Part shown: piece by piece, positions 2,401 through 64,000 of the stretch
Layout: every line of letters begins with the position of its first letter
Position numbering within the stretch: the first letter of the stretch is position 1
Source of the DNA: Antedon mediterranea
Lineage: Eukaryota > Echinodermata > Crinoidea > Comatulida > Antedonidae
Reading direction: 5' to 3'
DNA length: 64,000 nucleotides
Assembly: GCF_964355755.1 (NCBI RefSeq)
Contig: NC_092677.1
Span: forward strand, 10,624,601-10,688,600
The notes under the pieces: generated by a model
The model's database searches: none
Told to the model about the DNA's origin: nothing
What the model saw: only the letters and a program-made list of their open reading frames with translations
Made by a program: the position numbers and the translations under genes

Positions 2401-4057
2401 CCTAATTAATAAAGTTTTCAGAGTAGCAGCATTGGCCTTTATCAGCTGTGCATGTTATAAATATTTTCTATCCGCATGACATGATTGATGGCAGCACACC
2501 AAGACTATCGGCATGGTTGAACGTGCATAAAATTCATCATTTCTTATCGACAAGGTCAAGCACCCGAGTAAATCCATGGTTTCATAGGAAATTCGACCGT
2601 GCATCTTAATTCTATTTTTCTTATCTGTGCATTTCTTTCTAGATGCATGGTTGACTGTGCTGATAGAAAACATTACATTAGAGAGAGGCTCTGTCAGTCA
2701 TGCCGATAAAAAATAACAACTTATTATTATAGTCATTTTCTTATACTATAGCCTTATGTGGCCCTAACTACAGTAATAAAATATTACTATTTTTTATTTA
2801 TTTATTACACCTTATTTACAGAGGGTGACCCTAAACAGCGTATGCTGACAATTAATCAATAATAAAATAATACTAATAATCAATCAATAATAAAATAATA
2901 CTAATAAATTGATTAATTATTTTGTATAGTACATTTGGGAACTTTTCAACATTTTTGTGAAGATAACTGTGTACTGTTAACACTTGCAGAACATGCTGTT
3001 AATCCCAGGTCTTTAATTAATCAAATCATTCATGCAAACAATAATAAACAAAATCCCTTCCCATGTAATGTGTGCTCTGAACATGTGTGTTTGGCCTTTC
3101 ATGCATCAGTGCACCTCATTAGCATACTTATATCACGATGTTAAATTCTATGTGAACGCTCTTCACTGAGCTCATATCCATTAAATCCTAATTGGTTAAT
3201 TGCCAGTAACATGAATTCACACCTTTTTACTGTATTTTAGCATATTTTAGCATAATATTATGCAATCAAAAGCAGGAATATTACTGCAAAGTAATTATAA
3301 TATTTTTTAAACCTGTTGAATATACGCTATTCTTTATAAAATAATCTATGCCAACCTATGAAATACATGCAATATTCAAGCTGTTTAAACCATTTTGTTG
3401 TTAACAAGACCTATTTTATGAAAAGGCGGAATTGTATGTACAGTAAGATAAATAATAATAAATATGGCTATAAATCCAACATAAAATATTAATATTAAAA
3501 TTATTCATTGTATGTTACCATATGCTGACTCATAAATAATTATTATTTGTATTTTAGTATTCAAAACGCTCTAATCACCTTACCTACCAGTAACTTCCTC
3601 GGTCGTCTGTTTTAAAATAAACAGTCCACAGTCAGGAGATTTTATCTTATTATGTAACATTTAATAATAACCATTGTACATGTAACAATTATGTTTTCTA
3701 CACTATCAGGTACAGTAGTAATACATTATGTTTGTTTATTTAATTAATTTTTTTGTTTTTATCTACTGCTACAGGTACCTACCAGGTTGGGTTAAAATTA
3801 ATCTTAGCCAATAATACAACAGTATTTTATATTTGTAAACTTATTTAGTGTAAGCATGGAGGAACCCCTATGGTGTAAAGCTCTGTCTACACTAGTTTGA
3901 CAATAAAGTGTGCCCGAATATGGTAGTGATATGCCCAAATATAGTAGTGATATGACATTATGTCCATATATGGGCACATCACATAAAGTTTTATAGTGTA
4001 TACAGAGCTTAATCGGTGTAAATATACAGTACTGCATATCATATTTTTGTTTCAAAG
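2401..4057. other. Intergenic or 5' region upstream of the first visible MROH1 exon
   Basis: No supported coding exon. It holds a short minus-strand LINE 3'-end fragment (about 2790-2850), AT-rich simple sequence with repeated 'caataataaaataatacta' at 2855-2905, and one MITE copy (3878-4010) just before the first recognised exon. A short 5' exon carrying the true start of MROH1 may lie here or beyond the window, but I could not identify it. Confidence 0.4.
3878..4010. mobile_element. MITE family A, copy 1
   Basis: Palindromic element with ends AAGCTCTGTCTACACTA and TATAGTGTATACAGAGCTT. It carries a perfect CCATATATGG CArG box at 3964. It lies just upstream of the first visible MROH1 exon. 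Confidence 0.85.
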
Positions 4058-27100: not shown

Positions 27101-30100
27101 GAACAGAAAATCCTTCAATGAAACGTTTGATAATTATATATAATACAATTTTTTATATACCTTAGAACGCCTCCTTTAGACAACCCTATTAAGGGGATAT
27201 TTTCCTGTGATTTGAACAGGGGCAATATATGTTTGAATACTAAAGCCAACCCCCATTCAGGGGACATATTTCGTAGTCCCAACAGTGTCCCCTAAATTGT
27301 GGTTCTATTGTAACATTAAATTGCGTTGTAAAATTTGAAAACCTTTTTTAAGCTTTGATAACCAGATTTGAATTCTGTAATAGTTTACAACCAGATTTGA
27401 ATTCTGTAATAGTTTACAACCAGAGTTGAATTCTGTAATAGTTTATAAACAGAGTTGAATTCTGTAATAGTTTACATCCAGAGTTGAATTCTGTAATAGT
27501 TTATAACCAGTGTTTAATTCTGTAATAGTTTATAAACATAGTTGAATTCTGTAATAGTTTATAACCAGAGTTGAATTCTGTAATAGTTTATAACCAGTGT
27601 TTAATTCTGTAATAGTTTATAACCAGAGTTGAATTCTGTAATAGTTTATAACCAGTGTTTAATTCTGTAATAGTTTATAACCAAAGTTGAATTCTGTAAT
27701 AGTTTATAACCAGTGTTTAATTCTGTAATAGTTTATAACCAAAGTTGAATTCTGTAATAGTTTATAACCAGTGTTTAATTCTGTAATAGTTTATAAACAA
27801 AGTTGAATTCTGTAATAGTTTATAACCAGTGTTTAATTCTGTAATAGTTTATAAACAGAGTTGAATTCTGTAATAGTTTATAACCAGTGTTTAATTCTGT
27901 AATAGTTTATAACCAGTGTTGAATTCTGTAATAGTTTATAACCAAAGTTGAATTCTGTAATAGTTTATAACCAGTGTTTAATTCTGTAATAGTTTATAAA
28001 CAAAGTTGAATTCTGTAATAGTTTATAACCAGTGTTTAATTCTGTAATAGTTTATAAACAGAGTTGAATTCTGTAATAGTTTATAACCAGTGTTTAATTC
28101 TGTAATAGTTTATAACCAGTGTTGAATTCTGTAATAGTTTATAACCAGTGTTTAATTCTGTAATAGTTTATAACCAAAGTTGAATTCTGTAATAGTTTAT
28201 AACCAAAGTTGAATTCTGTAATAGTTTATAACCAAAGTTGAATTCTGTAATAGTTTATAACCAAAGTTGAATTCTGTAATAGTTTATAACCAGTGTTGAA
28301 TTCTGTAATAGTTTATAACCAGTGTTTAATTCTGTAATAGTTTATAACCAGTGTTGAATTCTGTAATAGTTTATAACCAAAGTTGAATTCTGTAATAGTT
28401 TATAACCAGTGTTTAATTCTGTAATAGTTTATAAACAAAGTTGAATTCTGTAATAGTTTATAACCAGTGTTTAATTCTGTAATAGTTTATAAACAGAGTT
28501 GAATTCTGTAATAGTTTATAACCAGTGTTTAATTCTGTAATAGTTTATAACCAGTGTTGAATTCTGTAATAGTTTATAACCAGTGTTTAATTCTGTAATA
28601 GTTTATAACCAAAGTTGAATTCTGTAATAGTTTATAACCAAAGTTGAATTCTGTAATAGTTTATAACCAAAGTTGAATTCTGTAATAGTTTATAACCAGT
28701 GTTGAATTCTGTAATAGTTTATAACCAGTGTTTAATTCTGTAATAGTTTATAACCAGTGTTGAATTCTGTAATAGTTTATAACCAAAGTTGAATTCTGTA
28801 ATAGTTTATAACCAGTGTTTAATTCTGTAATAGTTTATAAACAAAGTTGAATTCTGTAATAGTTTATAACCAGTGTTTAATTCTGTAATAGTTTATAAAC
28901 AGAGTTGAATTCTGTAATAGTTTATAACCAGTGTTTAATTCTGTAATAGTTTATAACCAGTGTTGAATTCTGTAATAGTTTATAACCAGTGTTTAATTCT
29001 GTAATAGTTTATAACCAGTGTTGAATTCTGTAATAGTTTATAACCAGTGTTTAATTCTGTAATAGTTTATAACCAGTGTTTAATTCTGTAATAGTTTATA
29101 ACCAAAGTTGAATTCTGTAATAGTTTATAACCAAAGTTGAATTCTGTAATAGTTTATAACCAAAGTTGAATTCTGTAATAGTTTATAACCAAAGTTGAAT
29201 TCTGTAATAGTTTATAACCAGTGTTGAATTCTGTAATAGTTTATAACCAGTGTTTAATTCTGTAATAGTTTATAACCAGTGTTGAATTCTGTAATAGTTT
29301 ATAACCAAAGTTGAATTCTGTAATAGTTTATAACCAGTGTTTAATTCTGTAATAGTTTATAAACAAAGTTGAATTCTGTAATAGTTTATAACCAGTGTTT
29401 AATTCTGTAATAGTTTATAAACAGAGTTGAATTCTGTAATAGTTTATAACCAGTGTTTAATTCTGTAATAGTTTATAACCAGTGTTGAATTCTGTAATAG
29501 TTTATAACCAGTGTTTAATTCTGTAATAGTTTATAACCAGTGTTTAATTCTGTAATAGTTTATAACCAGTGTTGAATTCTGTAATAGTTTATAACCAAAG
29601 TTGAATTCTGTAATAGTTTATAACCAGTGTTTAATTCTGTAATAGTTTATAACCAGTGTTTAATTCTGTAATAGTTTATAACCAGTGTTGAATTCTGTAA
29701 TAGTTTATAACCAAAGTTGAATTCTGTAATAGTTTATAACCAGTGTTTAATTCTGTAATAGTTTATAAACAAAGTTGAATTCTGTAATAGTTTATAACCA
29801 GTGTTTAATTCTGTAATAGTTTATAAACAGAGTTGAATTCTGTAATAGTTTATAACCAGTGTTTAATTCTGTAATAGTTTATAACCAGTGTTGAATTCTG
29901 TAATAGTTTATAACCAGTGTTTAATTCTGTAATAGTTTATAACCAGTGTTTAATTCTGTAATAGTTTATAACCAAAGTTGAATTCTGTAATAGTTTATAA
30001 CCAAAGTTGAATTCTGTAATAGTTTATAACCAGTGTTGAATTCTGTAATAGTTTATAACCAGTGTTTAATTCTGTAATAGTTTATAACCAGTGTTTAATT

Positions 30101-33100
30101 CTGTAATAGTTTATAACCAAAGTTGAATTCTGTAACTACCATTACAATTGTGTTTACAGTTCTTATTTATTTGTAAGTTAATATGTATGTAAGTTAATAT
30201 GTATGTAAGTTAATATGTATGTAAGTTAATATGTATGTAAGTTAATATGTATGTAAGTTAATATGTATGTAAGTTAATATGTATGTAAGTTAATATGTAT
30301 GTAAGTTAATATGTATGTAAGTTAATATGTATGTAAGTTAATATGTATGTAAGTTAATATGTATGTAAGTTAATATGTATGTAAGTTAATATGTATGTAA
30401 GTTAATATGTATGTAAGTTAATATGTATGTAAGTTAATATGTATGTAAGTTAATATGTATGTAAGTTAATATGTATGTAAGTTAATATGTATGTAAGTTA
30501 ATATGTATGTAAGTTAATATGTATGTAAGTTAATATGTATGTAAGTTAATATGTATGTAAGTTAATATGTATGTAAGTTAATATGTATGTAAGTTAATAT
30601 GTATGTAAGTTAATATGTATGTAAGTTAATATGTATGTAAGTTAATATGTATGTAAGTTAATATGTATGTAAGTTAATATGTATGTAAGTTAATATGTAT
30701 GTAAGTTAATATGTATGTAAGTAAATATGTATGTAAGTTAATATGTATGTAAGTTAATATGTATGTAAGTTAATATGTATGTAAGTTAATATGTATGTAA
30801 GTTAATATGTATGTAAGTTAATATGTATGTAAGTTAATATGTATGTAAGTTAATATGTATGTAAGTTAATATGTATGTAAGTTAATATGTATGTAAGTTA
30901 ATATGTATGTAAGTTAATATGTATGTAAGTTAATATGTATGTAAGTTAATATGTATGTAAGTAAATATGTATGTAAGTTAATATGTATGTAAGTAAATAT
31001 GTATGTAAGTTAATATGTATGTAAGTTAATATGTATGTAAGTAAATATGTATGTAAGTTAATATGTATGTAAGTTAATATGTATGTAAGTTAATATGTAT
31101 GTAAGTTAATATGTATGTAAGTTAATATGTATGTAAGTTAATATGTATGTAAGTTAATATGTATGTAAGTTAATATGTATGTAAGTTAATATGTATGTAA
31201 GTTAATATGTATGTAAGTTAATATGTATGTAAGTTAATATGTATGTAAGTTAATATGTATGTAAGTTAATATGTATGTAAGTTAATATGTATGTAAGTTA
31301 ATATGTATGTAAGTTAATATGTATGTAAGTTAATATGTATGTAAGTTAATATGTATGTAAGTTAATATGTATGTAAGTTAATATGTATGTAAGTTAATAT
31401 GTATGTAAGTTAATATGTATGTAAGTTAATATGTATGTAAGTTAATATGTATGTAAGTTAATATGTATGTAAGTTAATATGTATGTAAGTTAATATGTAT
31501 GTAAGTAAATATGTATGTAAGTTAATATGTATGTAAGTAAATATGTATGTAAGTTAATATGTATGTAAGTTAATATGTATGTAAGTTAATATGTATGTAA
31601 GTAAATATGTATGTAAGTTAATATGTATGTAAGTTAATATGTATGTAAGTTAATATGTATGTAAGTAAATATGTATGTAAGTTAATATGTATGTAAGTAA
31701 ATATGTATGTAAGTTAATATGTATGTAAGTAAATATGTATGTAAGTTAATATCTATGTAAGTTAATATGTATGTAAGTAAATATGTATGTAAGTTAATAT
31801 GTATGTAAGTAAATATGTATGTAAGTTAATATGTATGTAAGTTAATATGTATGTAAGTTAATATGTATGTAAGTTAATATGTATGTAAGTTAATATGTAT
31901 GTAAGTTATATTTTCTGCTATTACTAACCTTAAATGTTGGCATTCTTACACCTACAGGTGTCACAGCTAAACAAATCTCACATTTACTGACAGTCAGTTC
32001 AAGTTCTATAAGAATACAATAAAATCATTAAAGTTTACTTGTTTTATTAAAAGTCATAATGAATTATTTCTTAACCTATATTGCTATAATAAGTATGATA
32101 GAATAAGACAGGTTAAATCCAAAATAGAGAGACAGAACACATTAAGAAATTTATTTTATCTGAATTTTATCTATCGTCGTTGATCGTTAACAGTTCAACG
32201 ACGATCGTTTGAAAACGATCAAGTTGAAATGATGACAATAGCGAGTACCTTTTCCTGTAAATCGTTATCATTTCAATGTTTACGTAGAAGATCGCTGATT
32301 ATTGTTAGTAATAGCGTCGACTAACGTCGACAGGAAAACAGGCTTAAATCTCTTCTTGTTCAAATAGATTTTTATTCTTATAGTTCTGTGAGAAAGTTCA
32401 GGGCCCTTTATAAATGCTTAGTATTATTATTGATCACTTTATTTTAGAATAAAAATTCCATATATAGACAATTTTTTACTATTAATAGCACTCCCCTGTT
32501 ACACAAACCTCAGATCTGCCTCTAATTTTCAGAACTTACTTATGGCATTACACCTTGTGGAAGATGACAGAAAGTCCCTGCCTTGAATGTAGATGTCCCT
32601 ACATTTATTCCATAATGGTGCTATCTTTGCTCGTAGAGTGTATGCTAAACACGCTTGTAACACTGCATTTGTTACTGGAACTGGATTACTATGCTATAAA
32701 AACAATAATAATAATAATAATAGTCGATCTTATATGATGCTTGCTGCACAAAGCCTCTAAGCGCTTCACATTATTACCCCAGGCATTTTTTCTGAAAACA
32801 TACTCTCATAATGTTGCAGCCAGTAATAAGTGAATTTGTGTTGTGTTTGTACACCTGGGTGAAGAGAGGCATAATAACATTCTTTTTGTAGTGGCTTGAA
32901 TATTTCAAAGGCTGGTGTAAACTGCTCTGATCGTAAGAAAACGCCAACATTTATAATAGTGTACAGAATTACTTTAGTCCCACGATACTTACTTTCAGTC
33001 CCATTTTCTTAAAGCGTTCTTGTAATTTTCCAGTGTTCCAAAAGCCTTGATGCATTACGACAAATATGAAACCATCCTCCATTAAACATGGTGAGGCAAT

Positions 33101-51962: not shown

Positions 51963-54900
51963 TCATCTCCTAGGCCCTATTGAAGTGTATCTATTGCGTA
52001 TTTCAGATCCCATAGGAGCAGTATAACGTTGACGGCTTTTTTTCTCAGAAAATTCATCGTTGTCTTTTATAAAAGATTCATCGGTGCTGGAACGAAAAGA
52101 ACATTTATCAACAAAATATTTTTAACAGAAAAAGAATACTACCTAATACTCTGATACTAATTTGTGAAAATGATAATGATGATCACACTTATTAAATTAT
52201 GATGATATAACACAAAAGTAATATGATGATAATTTAGCTAAGGAGTTGCTTTGGGTCAGGCAACTAAGTTAATTGGTCAGAGATGTTTTGCCCTACTCTG
52301 TCAGTCTGCTTAGAACACTGTGCCAAAAAAGCCACTTTACTGGCATTCATTCCTTTAAACCATTCTTGCTAGGATTAGATTTAAGTCCTAGGAAGCAGGA
52401 AAGTTTTCTCAGTGTACTGAGCATAATGACGTTAGAATAACATGTACTACTTACAAGAAATGGATAATAGCCACTGTATAATAAAGCACCAAAGCTGTGC
52501 CTAGCACGACAATTAAAATGATATAAACAGAGCTGCTGTATATAGATTCCTGAAAAGAAAATTAATTCATGTATGGACGTACAAACACTGGCTTAGTACT
52601 TATATTAGTACATTCACTCTTAAGCTCTTTCTACACTATCAATTTATGAGACCAAAAAAATGTGATGTGCCTATATATGGACATGATGATGTCACATCAC
52701 TATCATATTTGGGAATATCACTACCATTATTTGGGCACATCACACTTTTTTTTGTTTAACTAGTTTGATAGTGTAGACAGAGCTTAAGGCTGGCAGAAAA
52801 TATTTGGATTTATATGCAGATCCAGATATACCTTGACCCTTACTCATTGAAAAGTGGTAACTAAAAATTCAATTCATTAATTCTATTATTCTACACTTGG
52901 AAATTTGTTTGGTCGTGATATACAAATATCAATAAAATGTTAAAATACACAAGCGGTTACAAAAAGCAATAATTATATGCTGGTAAGCTCTGGACGATGG
53001 AGGCATCTGTACCAGTATTTTAAGGGCTATAATGTATATATAACTTACCTCTTGGTTATCAGCATCATAAAACTTGTCACACGTCAACGAAGAACAAGTA
53101 CTGTCAATTAGTTTAGCTACAAAGTGAACAAGAAAACTTACACGTGTTATATTCAGTAAGCAGAGAGTTATTATTATTATTTTCACATATTTACTTTATT
53201 AAATTTATTTAATTCATACATATTTAAAAAGAAAATGAATAAATATGATGGTGATGAAAAAAACAACTTACAAATAAAATCGAACCTTTCATTTTCTTTT
53301 ATTTGATCAGGACAACAACTTGTTACTTGTTTCTGAAATAAAACATACAACTGTGTCATAAAAATCAGTACCATATTTGGGTATATCAAACTTTTTTGTC
53401 AAACTAGTTTGATAGTGTAACTTAAGACTAATAGATTATGCAGTTTTCTAGTTTTACTGAATGACTGTAAAGCTCTGTCTACACTAACAAACTATGTGAC
53501 AAAAAATGTGATGTGTCCATATATGGACATGATGTTGTCATCACTACCATATTTGGGAACATCACACTTTTTTTGTCAAACTAGTTTGATAGTGTAGACA
53601 GAGCTTAGACTCAATAACTGTGAGTCCAATTGTGTGTCATGAAAACAAAAGGTCAATCATTTTTGTATATCATATTTTTGTGTATCATAATAAATCATAA
53701 TCTTAAATCATAACATAAATCAGTAGCCTACCTCACACGTCTCCATGAGCTGTTTCAGTCGCGCTTCATTGCACAAAGCTTCGTCCCAGTAACTTGTCCT
53801 TTTGTCACCTGATAAAATATCACATCGGAGAATGTCACAGGAATCAGCTAAGCATATTGGATCACTTGGCTATAAAAGTATTTTAATATTAGATGGTTGT
53901 GAATCAAAATGGAAGTTAAAAATCAAATGGTGAGTTTACACGCCTTATATATGATTGGATCATTTGCATGATACATCTAGTTACTTTATGGCTCAGGGTG
54001 GGATTAAATACGAGGACCAACTGGATTATCTTGCATGAAAATCAAGTGGTTTAGTTTACACGCCTTATATATGATTGGATCATTTGCATGATACATCTAG
54101 TGAAATTATGGCTCAGGGTGGGATTATATATGAGGACCACTATTTTGCACAACAAATTACTACTTAAAATCTAGTGATGAGTTTATGCCCCAGGGTGGGA
54201 TTATATACGAGGACCACTTGGATTATTTTGGATGACAATTACTACTAAATACCTAGTGGTGGGTTTATGCCCAGGGTGGGATTATATACGAGGACCACTT
54301 GGATTATTTTGGATGACAATTACTACTAAATACCTAGTGGTGAGTTCATGCCACAGGGTGGGATTATATTCGAGCAAGTATAAAATGAATAAAAACAGGC
54401 TTTAGTACATTCAACAGATGATCTTGGTGTCTGTTTGTCATGTGTAAATCTATATGATACTCTGACACAAATATCTTGCCACAAATATTGCACACCCATC
54501 GGCCTAATTCATCAGTTTCTTTGTTCTGCTCCTGCATCAAATAAATATCATGTTTCAGATTCCACTGGCACTTGTCTGGAACTGTATAGCCGTGTGTTTG
54601 GAATGTAGGAAAGAAATTCTAGAAAAAAGAATATTTACAAAATTTAACTACGCCTATTATTGAGTACCTTTTTGTCAACAATTATAATTAAATTTGATAT
54701 TTGTAACACAAACATTTCTTAAAATAATAACTTTAAATAAATTTGTATTTGTTTTTATATTTTAAATAATTATATTAAATAATTTATTTTTAAATAATCT
54801 CATTCAGTGAGGATTTTAATCATTGTCGTTTAAGAAATTTAAAAAATGTAAAAATGTGAAACCTTTTCTAAAGTTTTTCTTGCTGTTCTAGATTTGTGTC

Positions 54901-59125: not shown

Positions 59126-62100
59126 ATGGAGTATAGCAGTGACTTTCGCAAACAGTTGTGTACTGCCTCGGAGCAGGGTGACTTATCAGCGGTACAAACA
59201 TTACTACAACACAATGACATCAAAGTTGATTGCGTTGACGGAGAATCCGGTATCACACCTCTCCAGTTAGCAGCAGCTAACGGACACGAGGATGTCGTCC
59301 GCCAACTTATCATGGGCGGAGCGGCACTTGACTGCAAGAACTTTTATGGTTGGACAGCCTTGATGCAGGCTGCTAGTTACGGTCACGATAAAGTTGTCGC
59401 ATTATTATTGCAAAATAAAGCAGATTTTAAATTAAAGAACAACCTTGGCGCGTCGGCCTTAACTGTAGCGGCGCGCTTTGGACATACCGCGGTTGTTAAA
59501 AGGTTACTTGACACAGGGATTGATGTTAATGATGGCACAAGTAATATCAACCAAGGATTTTACTCAAAAGGGATTGGTGCGACTCCGTTGATAGTAGCTT
59601 CTCAATTTGGACATGACGCCATAATGAGAGCGCTATTAGATCGCGGTTCAAATCCAAAACATAAGAACGAAACAACAGGGTGGAATGCGCTCATGTTTGC
59701 TGCTCTGAATGGACATATGACATCAGCGCAGATTCTAGTCGATCGAGGCTGTGATCCAAACGAGACTAATTACATCGGTAAAACTGCTTACGAGGTTGCA
59801 ATGTGTGCTGGTAAGCGAGAAGCTGCAGGCTATTTAGATAGGAAAACAACAACAAGACCAAAAATAGGTAGGATAATTATCAGTACATTTTTATAACTAT
59901 CATGGGGAGCACTAACTATAATATTAATTTTAGTCTGCAAAAAATATATAAAAGGAGTTTATAATGTAATTTTAGCTATCAAAATTTATTGAAGTTTTGT
60001 TAACAAAACTAATTTTGTACTGCATTGTTTCTGACATGGCTATAACAATATGTTGTTTATTTTATATATAAAATTCATATAATACTAAATAAATCTTATG
60101 CTTAATTTGAGATGTAAGCAGCGCAGTTTAAAATTGCGCAATTTGAAGTGTATGCAGCTCAGTTTTTTTGCGCATTTATTACATTTCTTGGTCACCACAG
60201 CTGGTAAATAAGTTTATTTCACCAAGGCAAATTCTAGTGCGAACGAGGCGTAAGTATATTTGAATGCTGCCATCTGTTGAGCCTGTGGAGTGTGGGATTG
60301 ACTAGCAGAAAGCAACATCTGTTGTATTACTGCTAATAAACTACATGCTTGATTAACCTTACTATTGTCTACTTTTGTGTATTCGCAATCGTATCAATAT
60401 TATAAGAAGTTCAACAGTCTCAAGCATATATTTGTTGTTTGAATATATTTTTAGTTTACAGGTGTTGTATAGTATTTAGAAATTCAGTGCCAACTTTAAA
60501 AAAACTCAATTTTCTTTTTTGGTGCAGTGCATCACCCCTATTTAGGGGATAACCTTCTTAAAAGAACTTTGCAAAATTCCTGTGAAAACGAATAGGGGTA
60601 AATGTGGTACTAGATGTTTAACATGCTACAGCCAACCCCAATTCAGGAGACACCTCTATTAAGGGGACACTTTGTAGTGTCCAGAATGTTTCCCCCTAAA
60701 AGGGGTTGATTCTACTAAATTCTAACCGAAAGAAACTGTTTAAGAAATGTTAAAAGATAGTATAGATATTTTATTGAAATTATTAAATGCTACTGTCGAC
60801 ACTATCAAACATTATGTGACAAAAAAAAATGATGGACATGATGATGTCATATCACTAACATATTTGGGCACATCACTACCATATTAGGGCACATCACTAC
60901 CATATTAGGGCACATCACTACCATATTAGGGCACATCACTACCATATTAGGGTACATCACTACCATATTAGGGCACATCACTACCATATTAGGGCACATC
61001 ACTACCATATTAGGGCACATCACACTAGTTTGATAGTGTATTTTAGTGCTAGTATGTATTTACGCTCTGTATAGTAAATTGCAATCAGATCTTTGAGTTT
61101 GTTGTATAGTATAGTCATTGTATTCTTCTTTGTTATGATATAAAAGGTGTACAAAGGAATTCATTTTCTTGCATTGTTTGTTAATAATCTTAAGATCCCA
61201 TGTATAGACTCGCTTAAAAAATAAACAATATACTCTTTATGCTGAAGTACTACAATATATATTCAAAGTATGGATTTCTATTGTTGGCTTGGTTCAGATA
61301 AGAGAGATCAAGGCCTATCTCTATTATCTGATATCTGAGAGTGTATTGTGTTTATTTATTTAAGCACAGACGAATTAGTTTTACCAATTCCTCCATGATT
61401 TAAGAAAATAATGTATTGTAAAAAGAGACTTTTTTTCTGATAATGTAAGGAACTTAGGAAGTCTATATAGTATAAAAAATAACATAATAAATATTCAAAT
61501 TAAACTAAAAATCCATTGGCTGACAGCTTTAAATTACAGTTTTTCAGGTAAATAAATTTTGTTCCTAAGATCCAATTTTTATTCAAAATGGATAACTATT
61601 ATGTGACAATAAAATGGCTTATTTGACAACAAAACTTGTAAAAATTATTTTTTAGGGGACAATACATCTTTGAACGTTTTACACAAATATTAATACACAA
61701 ATGAGGCGATTGTACAAGGCAACTACTAACGAATCTGTAATCACAGATTGTATGCTACAGATGCTTGATTTCTCAACATCTTTAAGATACAGTGATTATT
61801 TTAAGCATGTACAGTATTGTTAATTTCCTGCATATATATACAACTTGCAACACATAACAAAATGAATATACTTAACAGAATATAAATTTAAACAAAGCTG
61901 AAATATGCTACCACAATACAATTAGTTCTACTGAAGACCTATTCATTTGTTGATGATGTCTTATATGAAGTACCTAACGGCACTGAAATAGGCCTACTAT
62001 TGGAACGCAGCAATTTAGGGTGGGAAAATCATAAGTCATTTTATAGACATTTACAAATCATTCAAGTTTTGTTTTGTTTGTTTCTTTTATTCTTGATACA

Positions 62101-64000
62101 GTGCCAACAACATCAAAACCAAAGATCATTGAAGCAGCAGAAACTGGTGACCTCAGACTGATAACACAGATCTTAGATGAAGACCCCACACAGGTCGATA
62201 CTGTGTCACCAGAGGGGGCAACGTCGCTTATGATAGCAGCTATGCTTGGGAGGATTGATATAGCTAAGATGTTACTACATCGTGGAGCAGATATTAACAA
62301 ACAGGATTCTAAGAATGGTTGGACTTCTCTTATGCAAGCCACATTTTTTAGGTAATTATATTACATAATATAAAATAATCATGAAGGTTTGAGTTTGGAG
62401 GAATGGATTGTAAATTTGTAATCAAATAATAATAATATCCCGGATTTATAAAGCGCCTGATGTTGCGAAACCTAAGCGCTGTACATATTACCCTGGACAT
62501 TTTTGGATCAAACGTGTATGGAAACATAGTCATACTCCATAATGCAGGTAGTAATCAGCGCAAACGTGTGTCTTGATCTAACCAGGTACCTATTTGTACA
62601 CTTGGGTGGAGAGAAGCAGCTTAGTAATCAGTGCAAACGTGTGTCTTGATCTAACCAGGTACCTATTTACACTTGGGTGGAGAGAAGCAGGTAGTAATCA
62701 GTGCAAACGTGTGTCTTGATCTAACCAGGTACCTATTTGTACACTTGGGTGGAGAGAAGCAAACATAAATAAAGTATCTTGCCCAAAGATACAAGCAATG
62801 CAACAGGAGTTTGATTCGAACCACACACCTTTACAATGATACAAAATCTTTTAAGCTACCTTACATTTTAATTAAAGGCACACAGAGTTTGTAAAATTTC
62901 TCTTGAATCAAAATGCCGATGCCAGCCTCAAGGCCCAAGATCGATGTACAGCCCTTGATCTGGTTATATGTTTGCGTAAGTATCTTATTGTTTTGTACAT
63001 GTTATTTTTTCCTCTGGTTAAACAGACATAGGGAACATACGCAAGGCCGTAATGAGAGGTTAAAAACAGACAAGGCAAATTTGCTTTAAATATAATAATC
63101 AATTATATAATATGATGATCTGTGCTGGAGAATTGGTGGTAAAAATTGAAAATGTCAGACTAGGCAAGCGCTTTGTGTGCATCATGCTAGCTACGGCCCT
63201 GATACAGTAACCTATAACCACATAACTATTCTCCAGCTTTTATATTGTATTCCTACGAAATGTTTAAATATAACTTGTTGTTTTTTTTCAGCTGATTCAG
63301 ACACTGAATTGACACGGATGTTGGCATCTGCAGCAATGCCTGTCCAGGGTTCTGCTGCCTCATCACGCTCTCCAAAAAACAACACTGGTTCGGGAACATG
63401 GCTTACAAAATCTGACAAGCCACTACCAGATGAGAAGCCAAAAGGAGGATTGAAGGTAGGCCTATTAGTTTTATGTTATCTAGTTTTCTAAGACCACCAT
63501 TTAATTATACCAGTATTTTATCCTTCAGATGAAATGTTAAGGAGATGGTGATGTGTAGCACATGATCAATGTGTAAACAAATTGGTGTCACACCAAAATA
63601 CTTTAATTTAACAAAATTGAGCATTACAGTTTGCAATTTCTATTCTTTTTTATTTTAATTTTTAGCCCATTAGTAATCTTTAAGCCTGCTTAATTATCTA
63701 TCTCATTAACATAAAATCAACAAAAAAAATTGTAAAATTCGGAATGACCCTGTTTAACAATTAATGTTAGGCTTTGTCAAAATTTAAACAAATATTATTT
63801 TCGTTTTGTTCTCAATCTAGGCATGGTGGAATCGGTTATCAAATCGTTTCCAAAATCTGAAGTTGTCTCGGACGTTAATGTCTGGCATGACAACCACTAA
63901 ACTCACTCCATTCCATGATGAAAACAACGTGACTGATTCCGCTGTATCCATCGACAAAGAGAAGTCCGATGCAAGCATACAAAGAAACGGAAAAAAGAAA
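59126..64000 (+). CDS. ANKS6: Ankyrin repeat and SAM domain protein 6 (ANKS6), 5' part
   Basis: ANKS6 acts at the inversin compartment of the primary cilium with NEK8, INVS and NPHP3, and with BICC1; loss causes cystic kidney disease in vertebrates. Exons: 59126-59867, 62102-62351, 62878-62975, 63292-63455, 63821 past the window end; 478 residues so far, all in frame. Exon 1 alone encodes six or so ankyrin repeats; key matches to human are YGWTALMQAA.YGH, LGASALTVAARFGH, GWNALMFAALNGH and DYLDPLTTVRPK (here GYLDRKTTTRPKI). Then DGATPLMLAA-like, NGWTSLMQAT, FVKFLLNQNADASLKA, DSDTELTRMLAS and KGGLKAWWNRLSNRFQNLKL (human [20 protein letters not shown]). The C-terminal SAM domain lies outside. 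Start MEYSSDFRKQLCTASEQGD aligns with the human start region. Confidence 0.95.
60530..60716. repeat. Repeat G copy 4
   Basis: 'cacccctatttaggggat...' , 'agccaaccccaattcaggagaca', 'ctattaaggggacactttgtagtgtcc', 'ccctaaaaggggttgattctact'. In ANKS6 intron 1. Confidence 0.62.
60791..61040. mobile_element. MITE family A, copy 19, with seven-fold CArG array
   Basis: Left end TACTGTCGACACTATCAAAC, right end CACTAGTTTGATAGTGTA. The centre is expanded: unit CCATATTAGGGCACATCACT plus A (21 bp) repeated seven times, with CCATATTAGG starting at 60879, 60900, 60921, 60942, 60963, 60984 and 61005. Located in ANKS6 intron 1, about 1 kb from each flanking exon. Confidence 0.92.
62425..62850 (-). mobile_element. 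SINE S2 copy with internal triplication
   Basis: Begins 'aataataatatcccggatttataaagcgcctgatg', then 'tccataatgcaggtagtaatcagcgcaaacgtgtgtcttgatctaaccaggtacctatttgtacacttgggtggagagaagca' occurs three times in tandem (starts near 62545, 62620 and 62690), then 'cttgcccaaagata...gattcgaacc' (inverse B box). ANKS6 intron 2. Confidence 0.72.

Follow-up and report, generated by a model that had tools for sequence, protein, structure and literature searches.

Seven CArG boxes at an exact 21-bp step in an ANKS6 intron of Antedon mediterranea, probably a tandem expansion within a common MITE

How does a run of seven identical CArG boxes at one exact spacing come to lie in an intron of a crinoid gene, and is it likely to control that gene? 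Exact matching in the window, by which we mean the whole 64-kb stretch of DNA analysed here, confirmed what a sequence-only reading had reported, namely seven copies of the c-fos-type core CCATATTAGG starting at 60879, 60900, 60921, 60942, 60963, 60984 and 61005, all on the + strand and each 21 bp from the next. The array spans 60879-61014 (C8:10685479-10685614 in contig coordinates), and every box fits the CC(A/T)6GG core of a CArG box exactly. No further copy of CCATATTAGG was found in the rest of the 64-kb window; shuffling the window gives an expectation of 0.10 copies, and seven were reached in 0 of 100 shuffles. TRF describes the repeat as a 21-bp period with 8.2 units at 60851-61023 and 97% matching. 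Six of the seven CArG-bearing units are identical, the remaining one, at 60935, differs by a single linker base (GGGTAC), and the unit that precedes them all, unit 1 (60851), has the core ACATATTTGG and no CArG box. The array is flanked by two ankyrin-repeat exons, one ending near 59865 and the other starting near 62101, and the SAM domain encoded downstream finds its best solved relative in ANKS6 (4NL9 chain C, E 1.2e-8). Because of this match we assign the array to ANKS6 intron 1, barring an upstream non-coding exon, so that the location first proposed for it holds with the same proviso (Table 1).

Table 1 The array, the MITE copy around it, a comparison copy and the neighbouring exons (window positions)
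Feature	Position	Strand	Basis or remark
More complete copy of this MITE family (TIR, two inner units)	52616..52790	+	comparison copy
ANKS6 first coding exon (ankyrin repeats)	59129..59865	+	end approximate
MITE copy with array	60793..61040	+	outer ends degenerate, left inner CArG-type core lost; alignment to family consensus and inverted arms
Left terminal inverted repeat CTGTCGACACTATCAAAC	60793..60810	+	inverted arms and consensus alignment
First 21-bp unit	60851..60871	+	core ACATATTTGG: family's T at the variable place; one base breaks the CArG box
Seven 21-bp units ATCACTACCATATTAGGG(C/T)AC, one CCATATTAGG apiece	60872..61018	+	exact match, TRF, unit alignment
Right terminal inverted repeat GTTTGATAGTGTA	61028..61040	+	consensus end unrecognisable beyond
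ANKS6 second coding exon (ankyrin repeats)	62101..62355	+	ends approximate

Perfect 12-bp inverted arms, ACACTATCAAAC at 60799-60810 and GTTTGATAGTGT at 61028-61039, frame the array, and together with alignment to a family consensus they support the earlier suggestion that the boxes multiplied in tandem within a MITE. The consensus of this family is about 160 bp long, non-coding and present in many copies, with a TIR of about 23 bp, ends that favour T-W-A-A (those of the copy with the array are degenerate), a CArG-type core closing each long inverted arm on its inner side, and an inner part made up of one or two tandem 21-bp units, ATCACTACCATATTTGGGCAY, with the core CCATATTTGG. Genome-wide counts were taken over the 354-Mb assembly, with the reversed motif as control unless stated otherwise; the TIR word occurs 16,523 times against 0 for its control. 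About 19 copies lie within the 64 kb of the window compared with 5 in 100 kb sampled as ten 10-kb stretches of other parts of the genome, indicating that the region is MITE-rich, with a density several times higher. Copies diverge by 14.2% in their cores, 17.9% in the remainder and 6.3% in the outer TIR, and 26 of the 43 copies that could be read have a broken inner core, values that give no clear sign of selection on the CArG columns. Special conservation of these columns was considered and rejected, because the outer two cores are part of inverted arms that are themselves conserved and the inner core is so often broken. The MITE terminal word GTCTACACTATCAAAC also recurs at multiples of 42 and 92 bp (C1:410772-412383 and C1:1405829-1410612), and pieces of the element therefore seem to have been turned into satellites. 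The window has long tandem repeats of other kinds, a 29-bp unit repeated 96 times at 27358-30135 beside a 16-bp unit repeated 109 times at 30172-31908, neither of which has a CArG box.

The step of two helical turns had been read as a special geometry, an interpretation that does not survive comparison with the genome. CArG pairs exactly 21 bp apart number 5,186, against 35 for the reversed motif, and 21 bp is the unit length of the MITE family, so the spacing is inherited and not tuned at ANKS6. The family core CCATATTTGG occurs 23,460 times (514 reversed). By itself the c-fos spelling is not a genome-wide favourite, and we rejected that idea: CCATATTAGG is unenriched, with 1,098 copies genome-wide against 1,038 reversed. 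Pairs of CCATATTAGG at 21 bp nevertheless number 65 against 0 reversed and fall at 11 loci, five of them MITE by their linker. The largest CCATATTAGG expansion, again a MITE copy, has 21 boxes in succession (C2:4848469-4848898); the window array is one of several such expansions and not the largest.

We consider it likely, with a probability of about 0.82, that the array is a tandem expansion in a dead copy of this very abundant short MITE and has little or no effect on ANKS6. In outline, a dead MITE copy sits in ANKS6 intron 1, and within it a unit with the CCATATTAGG spelling would recently have multiplied to seven, with unequal exchange or replication slippage as the simplest candidate cause; any effect on ANKS6 would be slight or absent, and weak SRF binding might occur in open chromatin. 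That the boxes are spelled alike and follow one another at exactly 21 bp is therefore attributed to copying and not to selection at ANKS6. The array units are almost identical whereas inner columns differ by 14-18% among MITE copies, which points to a young expansion, far younger than the insertion. A natural control lies about 13 kb downstream, beyond ANKS6, where a sister MITE (L045:9500-9790) carries the 21-bp unit about 11 times over, with the non-CArG cores CTATATTTGG or CTAAATTTGG; expansion thus proceeds without a CArG box. What may count against plain MITE copying as the whole story is that CArG boxes are over-represented in non-MITE 21-bp repeats too.

Non-MITE CArG arrays with unrelated linkers are found, for example, at L035, L037 (both arrays), L039, L044, L047, L048, L056, L058, L059 and L060. 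SRF binding, duplication bias and common descent are candidate causes of their excess. In one broader account, tandem repeats in this animal would have formed again and again around CArG boxes, or have kept them by selection. Duplication of the site would be promoted by SRF, or by a different CArG-binding protein, sitting on a single side of the double helix, or by some feature of the CArG sequence itself, for instance hairpin formation; alternatively, such arrays would have been favoured repeatedly. The MITE would have inherited or exploited the same property, and the window array would be one case among others. We regard this account as unlikely, although several counts point towards it. Pairs of CCTTWWWWGG at 21 bp, with unrelated linkers, number 308 against 3 reversed and 1 for the one-base mutant GCTTWWWWGG, many of the 308 coming from a single huge array (C6:29904698 onward). 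CCATATTTGG pairs with a linker other than the MITE's number 22 against 0, and CCTTATATGG pairs at 15-45 bp number 96 against 0, at about 19 loci. Cores of the non-MITE arrays nearly all take the SRF-preferred form CCWTATWWGG, and CCTTAT is present in 12 of 13 non-MITE CCTTWWWWGG loci among the matches listed (p 4e-8 against hexamer frequencies), a preference that fits the SRF matrix consensus GCCCWTATAWGG (PMC3390389). The step is exactly 21 bp in 11 of 33 non-MITE loci (any step of 15-45 bp), with 3 more mixing 20 and 21, compared with exactly 21 bp in 4 of 46 unselected arrays (p 0.009 and 0.0008). Finally, a strand of the c-fos SRE is reported to fold into a hairpin in vitro (PMC11613138), which by analogy could provide a non-protein reason for duplication.

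Other observations weigh against a duplication-promoting role. The non-MITE CArG loci were all found through a search for the core, which in part builds in the core that they share; the controls are scaled by motif frequencies taken from no more than 174 kb (9 CCTTW4GG against 2, 4 and 4 for control motifs), and counted per locus the excess comes closer to several-fold than to hundred-fold. The sister MITE expanded with a non-CArG core, reversed CCATATTAGG yields 141 pairs at other steps, demonstrating that arrays of an arbitrary word exist, and a CArG box is present in 0 of 61 unselected non-MITE arrays. Within arrays, off-consensus positions make up 4.8% of cores and 6.9% of linkers, a small and ascertained difference. 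No clear signal of SRF flank preference was seen in the array linkers. Phasing at three or four helical turns was also considered and is unsupported once steps of 20-22 bp are excluded (Rayleigh p 0.49), and background arrays are phased as well.

Several of these loci are unusual in their own right. A very long 21-bp array unrelated to the MITE, with the core CCTTATTTGG and the linker CATCATTCATA, runs from C6:29904698 (start in L057) to at least 29906764. L037 (C9:23360356-23363620) has a pair of CArG arrays, at 757-912 and 3619-4021, that differ in linker (TGATCACCTTG and TGATCATACAA), are separated by about 3 kb and apparently lie inside one gene. At 238-630 of L049 (C5:25754037-25754429) a CCATATTAGG array with the G/C-rich linker GGGCTCTCC has a 19-bp step, which is not two helical turns.

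Common descent of the non-MITE repeats from a single ancestral repeat of 21 bp, which might be the MITE unit, with linkers that have since drifted, appears about as doubtful as a duplication-promoting role. Period and core are shared among these repeats, and the L046 linker matches the MITE linker at 9 of 11 positions in inverse orientation. The linkers also resemble one another slightly more than shuffled linkers do (p 0.01), so shared descent of some arrays is possible. Most linkers, however, have no alignable similarity, unconstrained drift should erase the core as quickly as the linker, and at several loci the period is not 21 bp (19, 23, 25, 29, 31, 33 and 38 bp).

Regulation of ANKS6 by the array has less in its favour. 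SRF is encoded at C10:16109449-16109958 (L007/L008), with a MADS region that matches human SRF nearly residue for residue (E 2.9e-51); a first candidate, L006, proved from its sequence to be what we take to be a MEF2-like protein. With so nearly invariant a DNA-binding domain the protein is expected to be capable of binding boxes of this type, and SRF binding to the boxes of the array is predicted to be possible. From there to a functional SRF-dependent ANKS6 enhancer, with seven dimers bound co-operatively on one face of the helix, is a step that we judge very improbable. Consensus CArG boxes, an exact two-turn step and an encoded SRF almost identical to the human protein in its MADS region are all consistent with an enhancer, as is the fact that known SRF targets often have paired or clustered CArG sites (PMC6467476). 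Against this, the step is simply the MITE unit length, the nearby sister MITE expanded with a non-CArG core, and the array has no Ets/TCF motif (GGAA/GGAT) on either strand and no CRE, E-box, AP-1 or TEAD site. The core, CCATATTAGG, has the c-fos spelling, but the absence of GGAA/GGAT within the array means that it is not a full c-fos-type SRE. Motif presence is moreover a poor predictor of binding, as in mouse 3,106,586 CArG boxes are reported against 6,759 SRF sites (PMC4524680), an excess of hundreds-fold. This excess, and the array's lack of partner sites, make an effect on ANKS6 appear unlikely a priori. A role as an SRF sponge, also proposed for the array, is not credible at this locus given the 23,460 CCATATTTGG sites elsewhere; the array supplies 7 of about 24,558 CCATATTWGG sites genome-wide. 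An assembly artefact, in which the unit count is wrong or the array is missing from other individuals, is a concern since near-identical tandem units tend to collapse or expand during assembly and the basis here is a single assembly, but it is hardly credible when bigger arrays of like kind assemble elsewhere (21 boxes, L034) and one unit of the array has a private base.

Tandem expansion in a common MITE thus leaves the finding at the ANKS6 locus true but ordinary. Its wider lesson is that simple tandem copying of a transposon unit can build a textbook array of transcription-factor sites without any selection being required, which calls for caution before perfect homotypic clusters are read as enhancers. 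The part that deserves specialist follow-up is the apparent excess, across the genome, of SRF-type cores in 21-bp repeats that are otherwise unrelated. If the CArG excess holds per independent locus, the places where tandem repeats originate or survive would be tied to a protein that recognises a particular DNA sequence. We found no paper on CArG or SRF minisatellites in the open literature.

Jeffreys-type minisatellites have a common core, a variable linker and a tendency to cluster toward chromosome ends. The non-MITE CArG arrays resemble them in having a common core and variable linkers and in their location, with 22 of 31 loci within 15% of a chromosome end, and differ in having a CArG box, centred on A/T, as the core and a period of mostly 21 bp. 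With the c-fos SRE and actin-type CArG boxes the window array shares the 10-bp core CCATATTAGG, and other arrays share SRF-preferred cores; unlike the c-fos SRE, it has no adjoining Ets/TCF site, lies outside a promoter and is tandem at 21 bp. The spread of MADS-box sites by transposons is already known in plants. In Arabidopsis, CArG-like motifs bound by PHERES1 lie on RC/Helitrons, with binding and an effect on genes shown by ChIP-seq and expression (PMC6914339). There, as here, a DNA transposon family spreads CArG boxes in a genome that encodes a MADS-box protein able to bind them; the present case concerns animal SRF, as a predicted binder, and a MITE, not a Helitron. MITEs that breed tandem repeats are likewise known, and Xmix/Xstir and miDNA4 in Xenopus and Pearl/CvA in bivalves bear tandem repeats and yield satellite DNA (reviewed in PMC9659126). 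The Antedon family resembles these in architecture: it too is short and non-autonomous, has inverted ends and contains a tandem unit that has expanded in individual copies. It differs from them in that its unit holds a perfect CArG box.
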